Positions 1 through 13,822 of a stretch of DNA of 39,747 bases are shown here, piece after piece; positions within the stretch are counted from its first letter, which is position 1; the number at the start of each line of letters is the position of its first letter. Made by a program: the position numbers and the translations under genes. Origin of the DNA: Methanothermococcus sp. SCGC AD-155-E23. GTDB lineage: Archaea; AGJL01; Methanococci; Methanococcales; Methanococcaceae. A model generated the notes under the pieces. That model did not search any database. It had not been told where the DNA came from and worked only from the letters and a program-made list of their open reading frames with translations. Where the stretch lies: the NCBI GenBank assembly GCA_019561615.1, contig JAHEQA010000047.1, positions 1-39,747 on the forward strand, in the 5' to 3' direction.

Positions 1-63
1 ACTGGCCCTAGGTGGAGAGACCTACAAGATGAAGTTTGGACATAGGGTGGAAATCAGCCTGTG
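1..63 (+). repeat. Inverted repeat, left copy, at breakpoint of the carA/pepQ inversion
   Basis: Bases 1-63 match the reverse complement of 1036-1099 completely except for one missing G in the run near 44-48. Immediately inward of both copies the sequences diverge: carA codons follow this copy and pepQ codons follow the other. The true left end cannot be seen because the window starts inside or at the repeat. Confidence 0.95.
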
Positions 64-312
64 AAGGATCTAGACAGGGATAAGGTATACATTACCTCTC
101 AAAACCACGGCTATGCTGTAAGGGGTGAAACACTACCTAAGGATATCTCGGTGTGGAATATCAATTTAAACGACAACACAGTGGAGGGGTTGATATCCAG
201 GGAGAAGGGTATCCTCTGTGTCCAGTACCATCCTGAGGGTGGTCCAGGTCCTCATGATGCAAGACATATCTTTGACGAGATGATAAAGTTAGGTCTGGAG
301 AGGGAGCTATAA
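1..312 (+). pseudogene. carA: carA 3' part (carbamoyl-phosphate synthase small subunit), detached and frameshifted
   Basis: This is the end of the glutaminase subunit of carbamoyl-phosphate synthase. It carries the second half of the class I amidotransferase site, the His and Glu of the QYHPEGGPGPHD motif. The in-frame part (61-312) continues directly from where the minus-strand carA ORF leaves off: 275 codons there plus 82 here would give a 357-residue CarA, normal for the family. Bases 1-63 repeat carA sequence also present at 1036-1099 in opposite orientation. One G is missing from the run at about 44-48, so the first 20 codons are out of frame with the rest and hit a stop at 62-64. The stop codon at 310-312 overlaps the convergent pepQ stop by 6 bp, which looks like a natural gene junction. 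As written this fragment cannot be expressed as CarA. Confidence 0.88.
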
Positions 313-1035
313 TCTTTTAAATCCCTCTTTTTTTATAAGGTAGAGATCCTCTATCCTAACACCGAAATCCTCCAGGTATATACCTGGCTCAAGGGTTATC
401 ACCATATTCTCCTTCAAGGTTACATCCTCCTTAGTTCTAGAACTTATGGAGGGTTCCTCGTGGACACTTACCCCTACACCATGTCCAAGGGAGTGTATAA
501 AGTATCTCTTATATTCCCCCATCAAATCCCTTGCCAACCTATCCAACTCCTTTACAGGGACACCCTCTCTAAGGTGATCCTCCAACTCTCCTTTTACCTC
601 ACTTATTAATTCATAGACCTCCCTGTACCTCCTATCCTCCTTTAGTATTACCGTCCTTGTAATATCTGAACAGTATCCCCTGTAGACTGCACCGATGTCA
701 ATAACCACTATATTTTTAATTACATCTTCAGAGGGTAACCCATGGGGAAGTGCAGTCTTTCTATCTGATATTACTATGGAGTCAAAGGCTGGCTTTATAC
801 TGCCCATCTTCCTCATCATATACTCTATCTCCCCTGCCAACTCCATCTCTGTAATGTTCCCCCTACTTAGACACTCTATCCCATACTCCATAGCCCTCCT
901 ACTTATACGGGATGCCCTCCTGATAAGCTCTATCTCCCTCCCCCTCTTTACACTCCTCATCTCCAACAACTTCTTAGATACCACCTTGTAGTCCCTTGAC
1001 AGGTATTTAAGGTATTTCAATGGGAAGGTCTCCTC
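307..1035 (-). pseudogene. pepQ: pepQ 3' part (Xaa-Pro dipeptidase, M24 family), lacking its N-terminal domain
   Basis: The 242 codons encode the pita-bread catalytic domain of an Xaa-Pro dipeptidase. All five metal ligands can be seen: Asp in VVIDIG, Asp in YCSDITR, His in HSLGHGVG, Glu in TLEPGIY and Glu in GVRIEDLY. The creatinase-like N-terminal domain of about 100 residues found in the usual 340-350 residue enzyme is absent, and CarA sequence stands in its place. If the 64-1035 segment is inverted relative to the ancestral order, the missing pepQ 5' end should lie just beyond the left edge of the window. The metal site is intact, so some hydrolase activity is possible, but that is inference. 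Confidence 0.8.
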
Positions 1036-1860
1036 CACAGGCTGATTTCCACCCCTATGTCCAAACTTCATCTTGTAGGTCTCTCCACCTAGGGCCAGTG
1101 TAATAATCTGATGACCTAGACAGATACCTGTAAGGGGAACCTTCCCTATAAGGGACCTTACAGTCTCTACAGCCTCCTTAACTCTTACAGGATCTCCAGG
1201 ACCGTTAGATACCAGTACAAAGTGAGGTTTGTACTTCAGTATCTCCTCTGGAGGTGTGTTGTAGGGCACCTGGATAACAGTACATCCCCTCTCAAGGAGA
1301 CATCTGATAATACTCCTCTTAACCCCACAGTCTATAAGGACACACCTGGCAACCTCATTCTCGGCCCTGTGGATAATCACCTCCCCTGTAGATACCAGGG
1401 GTACAAGGTCCATCTCCGAGAGGTCTCTATGCCCCCTGGCCAACTCAACATACTTCTTAATCTCCTTCTCATCTATAGGTTCAGAGGATGTTTTCAGGAA
1501 GGCCTTTACAACACCTCCTGATCTAATCTTTCTAGTTATAAACCTAGTGTCTACGTAGTAGATGCCAGGGATATCGTACTCCTTTAAAAATCTATCTAAC
1601 TCCTCCCTAGTTAGATCCTTTATAACAAAACCCTCCACCTTAATACCATCTGATTCATACCACTTCTCCTCTACCCCATAGTTTCCTATAAGGGGATAGG
1701 TCATGGTAACAATCTGCCCCTTGTAGGAGGGATCTGTAAGTACCTCAACATATCCTGTCATACTGGTGTTAAATACAAGTTCCCCTAAAACCTCCTTTTC
1801 AGCGCCAAATCCTTTACCCTTTAATACAGTTCCATCCTCTAAAACCAGTATGCCATGCAA
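307..1860 (-). CDS. carA: Chimeric ORF: CarA residues 1-275 fused in frame to PepQ catalytic domain
   Basis: The open frame is 517 codons. Residues 1-275 are CarA: the N-terminal small-subunit domain, then the glutaminase domain with the nucleophile Cys247 in GICLGHQ. From residue 276 the protein becomes the C-terminal 242 residues of an M24 Xaa-Pro peptidase. The CarA part lacks the His/Glu half of its glutaminase triad, which lies on the plus strand at 64-312. The start is a TTG at 1860, four bases after a GGTGA ribosome binding site, and 4 bases separate it from the pyrB stop, so pyrB and carA form an operon. The product as written should not supply ammonia to CarB. I read this as a rearrangement or assembly chimera rather than a designed fusion, because both halves are separately complete genes in relatives and the matching other half of carA is present nearby. 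Confidence 0.85.
1036..1099 (-). repeat. Inverted repeat, right copy, at breakpoint of the carA/pepQ inversion
   Basis: This 64-base stretch is carA codons 255-275 read on the minus strand and ends exactly at the switch from CarA to PepQ sequence. It has the full G run (four G) that keeps the carA frame open, so it is the more intact copy. It pairs with bases 1-63. Confidence 0.95.
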
Positions 1861-10711: not shown

Positions 10712-11875
10712 TTAATCTTTTATCATATCAACAGCCTTCAATCCAATCTGTGCAACCTCCTCTGGCAATCCTACATAACCCTCTGCCAGGTGCTCTGGTT
10801 TCTGTCCCTCAGTTAATACCCATCTCAGGAAGTCCTTGATAGCCTTAGCCTCCTCTGGAGTGTAGTGCTTGTAGTTTTTGTTCTCCCATACAAGGAAGTG
10901 TGTAAATGCCACAATTGGATAGGCCTTTTCACCTGGAGCGTCTAACAGCTGTTTTATATCCTCCTTGTAACCCTCTGTAGGATCTGGTATGTTGGTCTTA
11001 ACACCTGCAACAGCTGCCTGGATTGTCTCTGTTGTAGGCTCAACAAACTTACCCTCTCTGTTCTCTATAGCTGCAGTTGGTAGGTCGTTCTTAATGGTGT
11101 AGGACAACTCTGTGTATGCTATACTATAGGGGGTTTTTTTCAATGTGTTAATTACTCCAGGGTTACCCTTTCCTCCAACTCCTCTACCTATCTTATCAAC
11201 TGGCCAGTCAACAAGTTTTCCACTTCCTACCTTCTCAGCCCACTCCTTGCTTACCATACTTAGGAAGGTTGTGAATATGGCAGTGGTACCACTACTGTCA
11301 CTTCTGTGTACAACTATTATCTTCTCATGGGGCAATTTGTCGGCAACCTCAGGGTTCAACTTCTTTATCCTCTCGTCGTCCCAGTACTCGATCTTCCCTA
11401 GGAATATGTCTGCAAGTACATCCCTACTTAACTTTAAGGTATGCTTTCCAATCTCTGGAACGTTGTAGGTTATTACTACAGCTCCAACGATCTCAGGGAA
11501 CTGTAATGGCTGATCTCCAGTTTCTAAGAACTTCTTCCACATATCCTCCTTTACAGGTGGGTCAGTTCTTCCAATGTGTGTAAGTCCCATCAAGAAGTCC
11601 TTCTGCCCCTTTCCACTTCCTCCTCCCTCATACTCTATCTTTACATGTGGATTGATCTTCTGGTAGTCTGCTATCCACTTCTGTATCTGGTACTTTGGGA
11701 AGGTTGCTCCAGAGGTTCTAATTGTAACAGTCTTAGGAGGAGTGCTAGGTTGAACTTCTGGCTTAGTAGGAGTCTCTTGAGGCTGAGCCTTCTCCTGGGT
11801 GCCCATACATCCACTTAGGGATACTACAGGGACCAGGAGAAGTACCCCTAAAAGTAGAGCTACTATCTTCTTCAA
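10712..11875 (-). CDS. pstS: Phosphate ABC transporter substrate-binding lipoprotein PstS
   Basis: The extracytoplasmic phosphate-binding protein that delivers phosphate to PstCA. The phosphate-site signatures GSGKG, HRSDSSGTT and GVGGKGNPGV are visible. The N-terminus from a TTG at 11875 reads as a short lipoprotein signal: two Lys, a hydrophobic core, then lipobox LSGC with Cys23, followed by a Pro/Thr/Gln-rich linker. AGGTGG lies five bases ahead of the TTG. An in-frame ATG at 11902 would add nine residues before the signal and would lie right at the predicted transcription start. The first 144 bases counted from that ATG are 142/144 identical to the carbonic anhydrase gene upstream, and the promoter is similar too. 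Confidence 0.95.
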   Translation of the reverse strand: MKKIVALLLGVLLLVPVVSLSGCMGTQEKAQPQETPTKPEVQPSTPPKTVTIRTSGATFPKYQIQKWIADYQKINPHVKIEYEGGGSGKGQKDFLMGLTHIGRTDPPVKEDMWKKFLETGDQPLQFPEIVGAVVITYNVPEIGKHTLKLSRDVLADIFLGKIEYWDDERIKKLNPEVADKLPHEKIIVVHRSDSSGTTAIFTTFLSMVSKEWAEKVGSGKLVDWPVDKIGRGVGGKGNPGVINTLKKTPYSIAYTELSYTIKNDLPTAAIENREGKFVEPTTETIQAAVAGVKTNIPDPTEGYKEDIKQLLDAPGEKAYPIVAFTHFLVWENKNYKHYTPEEAKAIKDFLRWVLTEGQKPEHLAEGYVGLPEEVAQIGLKAVDMIKD

Positions 11876-11902
11876 AATACCACCTATTTGCCCTTTTAAC
11901 AT
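11759..11902 (-). repeat. Lipoprotein leader duplication, pstS copy
   Basis: These 144 bases encode the signal peptide, lipobox and linker of PstS. They match 12684-12827 at 142 of 144 positions without gaps. The differences are one silent change in the linker and ATG versus GTG at the upstream in-frame start. Weaker similarity continues upstream through the TATA box. Confidence 0.97.
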
Positions 11903-11923
11903 TTAGCTATTTGGACATAAAAT

Positions 11924-11940
11924 TCTATATAAAATTTTCT
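11924..11940 (-). promoter_or_regulatory. TATA-box promoter of pstS
   Basis: Minus-strand TTTTATATA (11926-11934) lies about 51 bases ahead of the TTG start. Just upstream, TTTCA (11955-11959) and TGAAA (11967-11971) form a short inverted repeat that could be a phosphate-responsive operator; that role is a guess. Confidence 0.55.
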
Positions 11941-11979
11941 ATTAGTGAACATTATTTCATAAAATGTGAAATACTACAT

Positions 11980-11991
11980 ATAAAAAAAATA
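11980..11991 (-). terminator. Oligo-T terminator after the carbonic anhydrase gene
   Basis: Eight T on the minus strand begin a few bases after the carbonic anhydrase stop codon. With a separate promoter for pstS this makes the carbonic anhydrase gene a single-gene transcript. Confidence 0.55.
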
Positions 11992-11996
11992 GGGGA

Positions 11997-12800
11997 TTAA
12001 CCCTTGTATTGCTCCAAGGGGATAAAAGTATCCTTCTCCTGGTCGTAATATTCAATCTCTCCAGTCCTTATATTGAAGTACCATCCATGTATAGAGAGCT
12101 CCCCATTTTCTACCCTTCTCTTTACCCCTGGATATGTCATAAGGTTTTTAATCTGGAACTTTATGGAGGTCTTCTCAGTAAGTTCTGCAAGTTTCTCTTT
12201 ATCCACTGTCTTATTCCCGATCTCCTTTAAAACATACTCCTTAACTGGTTCTGCCACTTTTAACCACTTTTTTATAGCCATCATTTCAGGATCCTCTGGG
12301 ATATCTTGGTAGAGTGCTTTACAGGCTCCACACTGTGAGTGACCACAGACTATGATATGCTCCACTTCTAACACAGAAACTGCATACTCTATTGCCGATG
12401 CAACACCACTGTACTCTAGGGCAGATTCATGAGGTGGCACAAAGTTCCCTATAACTCTCAGAACAAAAAGATCCCCAGGATCACTTTTTGTTATTATACT
12501 TGGGACAACCCGTGAGTCACTACATGTGATGAAGAATACCTTTGGTTTTTGACCCTCTTCAGCCAACTTGGCGAATAACTCTTTATTTTTTTCATAGTAG
12601 TCCTTTCTATACTCCATATAGTTTTTTATTAGTGTTTTCAGATCTTTACCTTCCACGTTTACAACCTCTTCTTTATTTTTAGTTGGCTTAGTAGGGGTCT
12701 CTTGAGGCTGAGCCTTCTCCTGGGTGCCCATACATCCACTTAGGGATACTACAGGGACCAGGAGAAGTACCCCTAAAAGTAGAGCTACTATCTTCTTCAA
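11997..12800 (-). CDS. Surface-exposed beta-class carbonic anhydrase with PstS-derived lipoprotein leader
   Basis: Interconverts CO2 and bicarbonate with a zinc site. The beta-class ligands are present: Cys and Asp of ITCSDSR, and His and Cys of CGHSQCG. The catalytic domain resembles bacterial beta enzymes of the Helicobacter/vent Campylobacterota type. The N-terminus is the same signal peptide, lipobox LSGC (Cys23) and linker as PstS, so the enzyme should be lipid-anchored outside the membrane, whereas methanogen beta enzymes such as Cab are cytoplasmic. I use the TTG at 12800, which has AGGTGG five bases ahead and starts the signal cleanly; an in-frame GTG at 12827 is the alternative. It has its own TATA box and terminator. 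Transfer of a bacterial gene followed by capture of the pstS leader is my inference. Confidence 0.92.
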   Translation of the reverse strand: MKKIVALLLGVLLLVPVVSLSGCMGTQEKAQPQETPTKPTKNKEEVVNVEGKDLKTLIKNYMEYRKDYYEKNKELFAKLAEEGQKPKVFFITCSDSRVVPSIITKSDPGDLFVLRVIGNFVPPHESALEYSGVASAIEYAVSVLEVEHIIVCGHSQCGACKALYQDIPEDPEMMAIKKWLKVAEPVKEYVLKEIGNKTVDKEKLAELTEKTSIKFQIKNLMTYPGVKRRVENGELSIHGWYFNIRTGEIEYYDQEKDTFIPLEQYKG

Positions 12801-12827
12801 AATACCACCTATTTGCCCTTTTAACAC
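12684..12827 (-). repeat. Lipoprotein leader duplication, carbonic anhydrase copy
   Basis: Partner of 11759-11902, 142 of 144 bases identical. The identity ends abruptly after the codons for Thr-Lys-Pro; PstS continues with Glu-Val-Gln and this gene with Thr-Lys-Asn, which marks the junction with the carbonic anhydrase body. Confidence 0.97.
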
Positions 12828-12848
12828 TTATCTATTTGGTCATGATTG

Positions 12849-12891
12849 TATATAAAGTTTTCCACAGGAATAATATTATTCGTGGCGAATA
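12849..12891 (-). promoter_or_regulatory. Promoter and operator-like palindrome of the carbonic anhydrase gene
   Basis: Minus-strand CTTTATATA (12849-12857) stands 49 bases ahead of the TTG start, the same spacing as in pstS. Upstream, TATTCG (12877-12882) and CGAATA (12886-12891) form a perfect palindrome around three bases, which is not present before pstS. It lies between this gene and the divergent htpX and could control either. Confidence 0.55.
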
Positions 12892-12964: not shown

Positions 12965-13822
12965 ATGATAGCCACCTTAAAAGTACTACTGTTGATGGCT
13001 CTACTGACGGGAATACTCTATGGAGCATGTTTGCTATTTAACATCCATCCTCTAATAGCTCTAATAATAGCACTGATACCTAACCTTATTGCCTACTTCT
13101 TCAGTGACAAGATAGTACTTATGAGTTATGGGGCAAGGATAGTAGATGAGAGGGAGGCACCTTATCTCCACAGGATTGTGGAGAGGGTGGCAAGGAGGGC
13201 AGGTATTCCAAAACCTAAGGTAGCTATAATAGATACACCTACTCCAAACGCCTTCGCAACAGGTAGAAGTCCAAAACATGGGGTGGTGGCAGTTACCACA
13301 GGTATTATGAACCTCCTTAACTCCCAGGAGTTGGAGGGAGTAATTGCCCATGAGATAAGCCATATAAAAAATAGAGATATCCTAATAGGTACCATAGTGG
13401 CTGTACTTGCAGGGGCTATCGTCTACCTTGCAGAGATGCTCCAGTGGGGACTGTTATTTGGATTTAGTAGGGAAGATGAAGATAACCCCCTGGAGTTCAT
13501 AGGTTCCATACTCTTTATGATATTTGCACCTATTGCTGCAACCCTGATACAGTTTGCCATCTCTAGGCAGATGGAGTTCCGTGCAGATGAGGGTGGAGCT
13601 AGATACTCCCATCCCCTCTATCTAGCAAATGCCCTGGTTAAACTTGAAAAAGGAGTAAGTATGTACCCCCTAGAGAAGGGTAATCCAGCAACTGCACATC
13701 TCTTTATAGTAAATCCCTTTAGAGATGAGACTATAATGAAACTCTTCTCCACACATCCACCTACAGAGGAGAGAGTAAGAAGACTCCTTGAGATGGCAAA
13801 AAATCTAGGATACAGGAGATAG
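12965..13822 (+). CDS. htpX: HtpX-like membrane zinc metalloprotease
   Basis: A 285-residue M48 family protease for membrane protein quality control. Two hydrophobic helices lie at the N-terminus (about residues 5-47), the zinc motif HEISH sits near residue 130, two more helices follow, and the third ligand is the Glu of MEFRADEGG. The start has GGAGGG upstream in TAGGAGGGATAGGG. It is divergent from the carbonic anhydrase gene. The length and layout are normal for archaeal HtpX. Confidence 0.93.

Follow-up and report, generated by a model that had tools for sequence, protein, structure and literature searches.

In the window, that is, the whole stretch of 39,747 nucleotides analyzed here (one contig of a 51-contig draft of Methanothermococcus sp. 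SCGC AD-155-E23), a beta-carbonic anhydrase gene (bCA) and the neighbouring phosphate-binding lipoprotein gene pstS start with almost the same leader. This is very probably explained, taken as a whole, by an old fusion, recurrent conversion of the leaders and export of a lipid-anchored carbonic anhydrase. In an ancestor of the present clade within the Methanococcales, a bacterial-type bCA would have come to sit between htpX and pstS, its reading frame joined to a duplicate of the first part of pstS (core promoter, 5'UTR, lipoprotein signal peptide and linker). Gene conversion between the two leaders, about 0.9 kb apart on the same strand, would then have rewritten them again and again, while upstream operator and body stayed specific to each gene; the copying seen in the window would have run from pstS to bCA, later than the divergence from the closest sister, genome G012. 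The product would be exported by the Sec route, cleaved at the lipobox and lipid-anchored, and would equilibrate CO2 with bicarbonate at the cell surface.

The duplication described in the first-pass annotation (144 bases comprising signal peptide, lipobox Cys and linker) was confirmed by alignment: the 5' ends of pstS (11759-11902) and bCA (12684-12827), both on the minus strand, were identical at 142 of 144 positions. Numbered on the pstS side, the copies disagree only at 11902 (A/G) and 11771 (T/C), and between these positions lies the longest exact match, of 130 nt (11772-11901). The likeness reached upstream to 11929/12854 (95% over 171 nt), and therefore the 5'UTR and the TATA region belong to the shared segment, which covers the core promoter, 5'UTR, signal peptide, lipobox Cys and linker. 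The duplicated unit thus contains the coding leader originally proposed, but is not limited to it. The bodies of the two proteins are unrelated, as had also been claimed, since they belong to separate families, Pro_CA (PF00484) and PstS (PF12849 / TIGR00975). Two copies of the leader, and no third, were found in the window genome, which is 86% complete; the search across the genus returned only weak matches outside pstS and bCA. The possibility that many unrelated lipoproteins of this genome share the leader was rejected on these grounds.

The leader peptide, read from an internal TTG preceded by AGGTGGT, is MKKIVALLLGVLLLVPVVSLSGC-MGTQEKAQPQETPTKP. This TTG is most likely the start codon of both genes, and the upstream ATG/GTG first assumed is an unlikely start, because in G015 a stop closes the upstream frame. 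The coordinates are collected in Table 1. Downstream of the window pstS lie pstC and then pstA, completing a pstS-pstC-pstA set. At the end of the contig, positions 1-47 and 1053-1099 form a perfect 47-nt inverted repeat; by eye, from the translations, a 517-aa open reading frame (307-1860, minus strand) looks like a carA start fused to a pepQ-like end, and a carA-like end lies at 61-312 (plus strand). A misassembly or an inversion is possible there.

Table 1. Features of the bCA/pstS locus (window positions unless a locus is named).
Feature	Position	Strand	Evidence or remark
bCA with PstS-type lipoprotein leader	11997..12827	-	PF00484 1.3e-50; PDB 5swc 4e-47
bCA likely start, TTG	12800		
bCA lipobox Cys codon	12732-12734		
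bCA zinc ligands; dyad	C93, H154, C157; D95/R97		numbered from TTG 12800; invariant in alignment
pstS, phosphate-binding lipoprotein	10712..11902	-	TIGR00975 3e-124; likely start TTG at 11875
Converted tract, bCA side (5'UTR, signal peptide, lipobox, linker)	12684..12843	-	
Converted tract, pstS side (probable donor)	11759..11918	-	groups with G012 pstS leader
TATA box region of bCA, AAAACTTTATATA	12849..12861	-	sequence
TATA box region of pstS, AAAATTTTATATA	11926..11938	-	sequence
pstS palindrome TTCACATTTTATGAA, candidate phosphate operator	11956..11970	-	no copy at bCA
Further sites of the pstS palindrome	L079 1501-1515; L078 1501-1515; many loci among L086-L113		
bCA-specific palindrome ATTCGCCACGAATAATA	12874..12890	-	exact pattern match in G015 solely at the orthologous site
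htpX-like M48 protease, divergent neighbour, synteny anchor	12965..13822	+	PF01435 1.7e-38; conserved beside bCA/pstS

Among the 12 genomes of the genus, the bCA family was detected in the window genome, G012, G015 (two copies) and G018, with a damaged copy in G013, and it was not found in the remaining Methanococcales of the 36 genomes searched. The gene order htpX / bCA / pstS / pstC / pstA is common to the window, G012, G015 and G018, and a leadered bCA occupies the same htpX-pstS site in G015 (body dS to the window 0.32) and G018 (dS 1.26). Most of these genomes are drafts, the only complete contig with a leadered bCA being that of G015. In G011, one contig ends with htpX and a leader and another begins with a leader and pstS, the two overlapping exactly by 95 nt; the simplest reading of this break is a repeat with the bCA contig missing in between. 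In G008 and G014, htpX adjoins pstS and bCA is absent; a loss by crossover between the leaders was not supported, because the upstream DNA is of the pstS type. A tree of PstS, PstC, PstA and HtpX, with two weakly supported deeper nodes, placed the window genome (G000) and G012 as sisters, followed by G011, then G015 with G014/G008, and then G018/G013. From this distribution, the leadered fusion would most simply be ancestral and lost in G008 and G014.

The leader is not fixed in the family. The bCA of G012 has lost it, short remnants of the promoter and leader region persisting there, and it is absent from the second bCA of G015 (C1 1029369-1030067, L037), which is synonymously closest to the G018 gene (dS 0.79) and whose N-terminus, MKLKYSEEGQKTETTESG, resembles the leader linker minus the signal peptide. 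Both the remnants and this linker-like N-terminus point to loss. The catalytic residues are intact in the two leaderless proteins. The decayed bCA of G013, which adjoins htpX (L041 4180-5185), has a degraded lipobox (SLNRC), lacks an internal part and is interrupted by a stop; a second leader lies at the end of its contig.

The window bCA is complete and matches its family profile with 172 bits (cut-off 25.7). The zinc-binding Cys-His-Cys and the Asp-Arg dyad are present as CSDSR and CGHSQC; these key residues are invariant in six aligned sequences and align with those of 5swc and 1ekj. The dN/dS values of the body (0.06-0.18) indicate purifying selection. The closest solved structure was 5swc, a CcaA-type bCA. 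Close similarity to the short archaeal Cab (1g5c, about 160-170 aa) was not found, this match being far weaker (1.5e-4), and Cab-size Pro_CA proteins were found separately in G009, G010 and G016. The closest relative in the plasmid collection was the bCA of a Sulfurovum mangrovi plasmid (49% identity). Unlike the window protein, it has no leader, its chain opening directly with the enzyme body, and the match to 5swc also begins near the chain start. The body is of bacterial type and probably came from bacteria by transfer.

By inspection, MKKIVALLLGVLLLVPVVSLSGC shows the features of an archaeal lipoprotein, with a charged n-region, a hydrophobic core and a lipobox. Both the core and LSGC are intact in the window, G015 and G018, and export with lipid anchoring is the best reading of these three sequences. 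The product would most likely be exported by Sec, cleaved at the lipobox and anchored outside the cytoplasmic membrane where, by analogy, it could plausibly balance CO2 and bicarbonate for a CO2-consuming methanogen. The earlier proposal of an exported, lipid-anchored bCA keeps its basis, a leader of Sec lipoprotein appearance (lipobox LSGC) taken from one gene onto an unrelated body. Since G012 and the second G015 copy have no leader, the enzyme does not depend on export in every relative. It is unlikely that the leader is unused for export and that the enzyme stays in the cytoplasm for bicarbonate supply. The leaderless proteins, whose bodies are still constrained, agree with that role, but the signal is preserved in all three leadered genes and its lipobox is degraded solely in the G013 pseudogene.

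The history of the leader was read from its relation to the flanking segments. Over the 69 nt of signal-peptide DNA, bCA and pstS of the same genome were 100% identical in the window, 90% in G015 and 94% in G018, and the window bCA shared 86% with the bCA of G015 and 67% with that of G018. Each bCA leader therefore resembles the pstS leader of its own genome, whereas the operators and the bodies group with their orthologues. Between the window and G015, the informative sites of the upstream block grouped by gene at 13 positions and by genome at 3, and those of the 5'UTR, signal peptide and linker grouped by genome at 17 and by gene at 1. Topology tests gave opposite results in the two regions: grouping by gene was rejected in the leader (dlnL 67.7) and grouping by genome was not, and in the operator region grouping by genome was rejected (dlnL 40.9) and grouping by gene was not; with only about 120 coding nt in the leader, the p-values are imprecise. 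This is the pattern of concerted evolution: at a locus of conserved position, the paralogous leader segments cluster by genome and their flanks with the orthologues. These opposite results indicate that the fusion is old and that repeated gene conversion keeps the leaders nearly identical.

Moreover, a 29-nt insertion in the 5'UTR was present in both G018 copies and in none of the other aligned genomes. The 5'UTR of the window bCA (GGGCAAATAGG) is of the G012 pstS type, and the 5'UTRs at the bCA position in G011 and G015 are GAACTGTAGG, which gives the direction of conversion in the window as pstS to bCA. Over 117 nt, the leaders of bCA and pstS within the window differ at a single position and the pstS leaders of the window and G012 at 11; the last conversion is therefore later than the split of these two lineages. 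The dS values between the window and G015 rose from the bCA body (0.32) to pstS (0.62) and pstC (1.20). The low value of bCA makes its transfer between lineages possible; besides such an exchange, conversion over a greater length and codon bias are possible explanations.

A series of separate captures, in which an ancestral leaderless bCA took the leader of the neighbouring pstS anew in each lineage, would also make the leaders group by genome and would account for the leaderless genes of G012 and G015. In practice, this is hard to tell apart from conversion of the whole leader. It is nevertheless quite improbable, since the same in-frame junction would have had to arise at least three times and the leaderless genes carry the signs of loss described above. 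Additionally, the linker of the G018 bCA keeps TEENAQ, as the G015 bCA leader does, and this motif is missing from the differing linker of the G018 pstS, which argues for one old capture.

The first-pass annotation had read the near-identity as a clear recent domain capture, the pstS leader having been duplicated onto bCA in the window lineage only. The 142 identical bases and the presence of only two copies in the genome suit that view, which has nonetheless become very improbable. Comparison with the pstS and carbonic anhydrase loci of sister species, suggested there for dating the event, revealed leadered orthologues at the same site in G015 and G018, the pseudogene in G013 and, by its contig break, G011, and thus an old fusion. 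The bCA operators are orthologous across genomes and old linker residues are shared; conversion after the split from G012 explains the near-identity instead. Finally, an artefact of k-mer collapse, creating the near-identity or the bCA leader itself, is hardly credible: the window comes from a draft, repeats of about 130 nt are close to short-read length and G011 breaks at this place, but the complete genome G015 has the same arrangement, and a simple assembly bubble does not fit two copies with distinct flanks and distinct upstream DNA.

The region above the converted tract was also compared. The pstS palindrome TTCAYATTTTATGAA was found in its relaxed form TTCAYATWWTRTGAA in 29 of the 36 Methanococcales genomes, with one to a few matches per genome and very few control matches. 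At many of the inspected loci this relaxed pattern stands before pstS; at others it precedes genes for PhoU-domain proteins, alkaline phosphatase, a winged-helix PhoU protein and a Na/Pi cotransporter that has a PhoU domain, and some matches stand before other genes. These positions make it a candidate phosphate operator for Methanococcales, with the HTH-PhoU protein L092:1529-2371 as candidate regulator. At the corresponding place, bCA carries a different palindrome, ATTCGYNRCGAATAATA; since a palindrome of the form 5-3-5 arises in 23% of shuffles and is not rare by chance, the weight of this one rests on its conservation. Membership of bCA in the phosphate regulon was not supported, because its upstream region lacks the palindrome found before pstS and the alkaline phosphatase gene. 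Therefore, conversion shares the leader and the core promoter, and the operators stay separate.

Gene conversion of mtrA has been published for the same order, Methanococcales (PMC4632066). There, too, neighbouring genes combine one homologous and one unrelated segment, and the homologous one was repeatedly converted per species; it is, however, the MtrA domain that was converted, and here only the core promoter, 5'UTR and export leader of genes with unrelated bodies. An extracellular carbonic anhydrase is also reported for another methanogen of the order, Methanococcus maripaludis OS7, whose MMOS7_11640 has a Sec signal and proteomics support; its gene lies on an unstable genomic island and its role is called unclear by its authors (PMC6181927). 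That enzyme is of the gamma class, and the passages of the report devoted to it do not mention a link to a PstS leader. Bacterial beta-carbonic anhydrases that combine the beta class with an N-terminal export signal are described in PMC5746736; in the sections dealing with them, the signal peptides are only predicted, and neither a lipobox nor a leader shared with a neighbour is named. A periplasmic alpha-carbonic anhydrase is stated to help CO2 supply in Rhodopseudomonas (cited in PMC10880623). Archaeal lipoproteins are real, AliA and AliB being needed for lipidation in Haloferax (PMC12186497).

The locus represents a compact natural case in which an export leader and a core promoter, with no functional domain, are kept alike between unrelated neighbours, and it cautions against dating domain capture by near-identity in archaea, where genes undergo active conversion. 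As a by-product it provides the candidate phosphate operator, and it yields testable predictions on an external bCA of a heat-loving methanogen. More tentatively, the pstS leader might be a standing recombination cassette that has provided an unrelated enzyme with a functional export signal ever since the clade arose, its loss giving a cytoplasmic enzyme, as in G012 and the second G015 copy. If so, the localization of carbonic anhydrase would be toggled by conversion or decay of a borrowed leader, and independently of regulation, because conversion stops below the operators.
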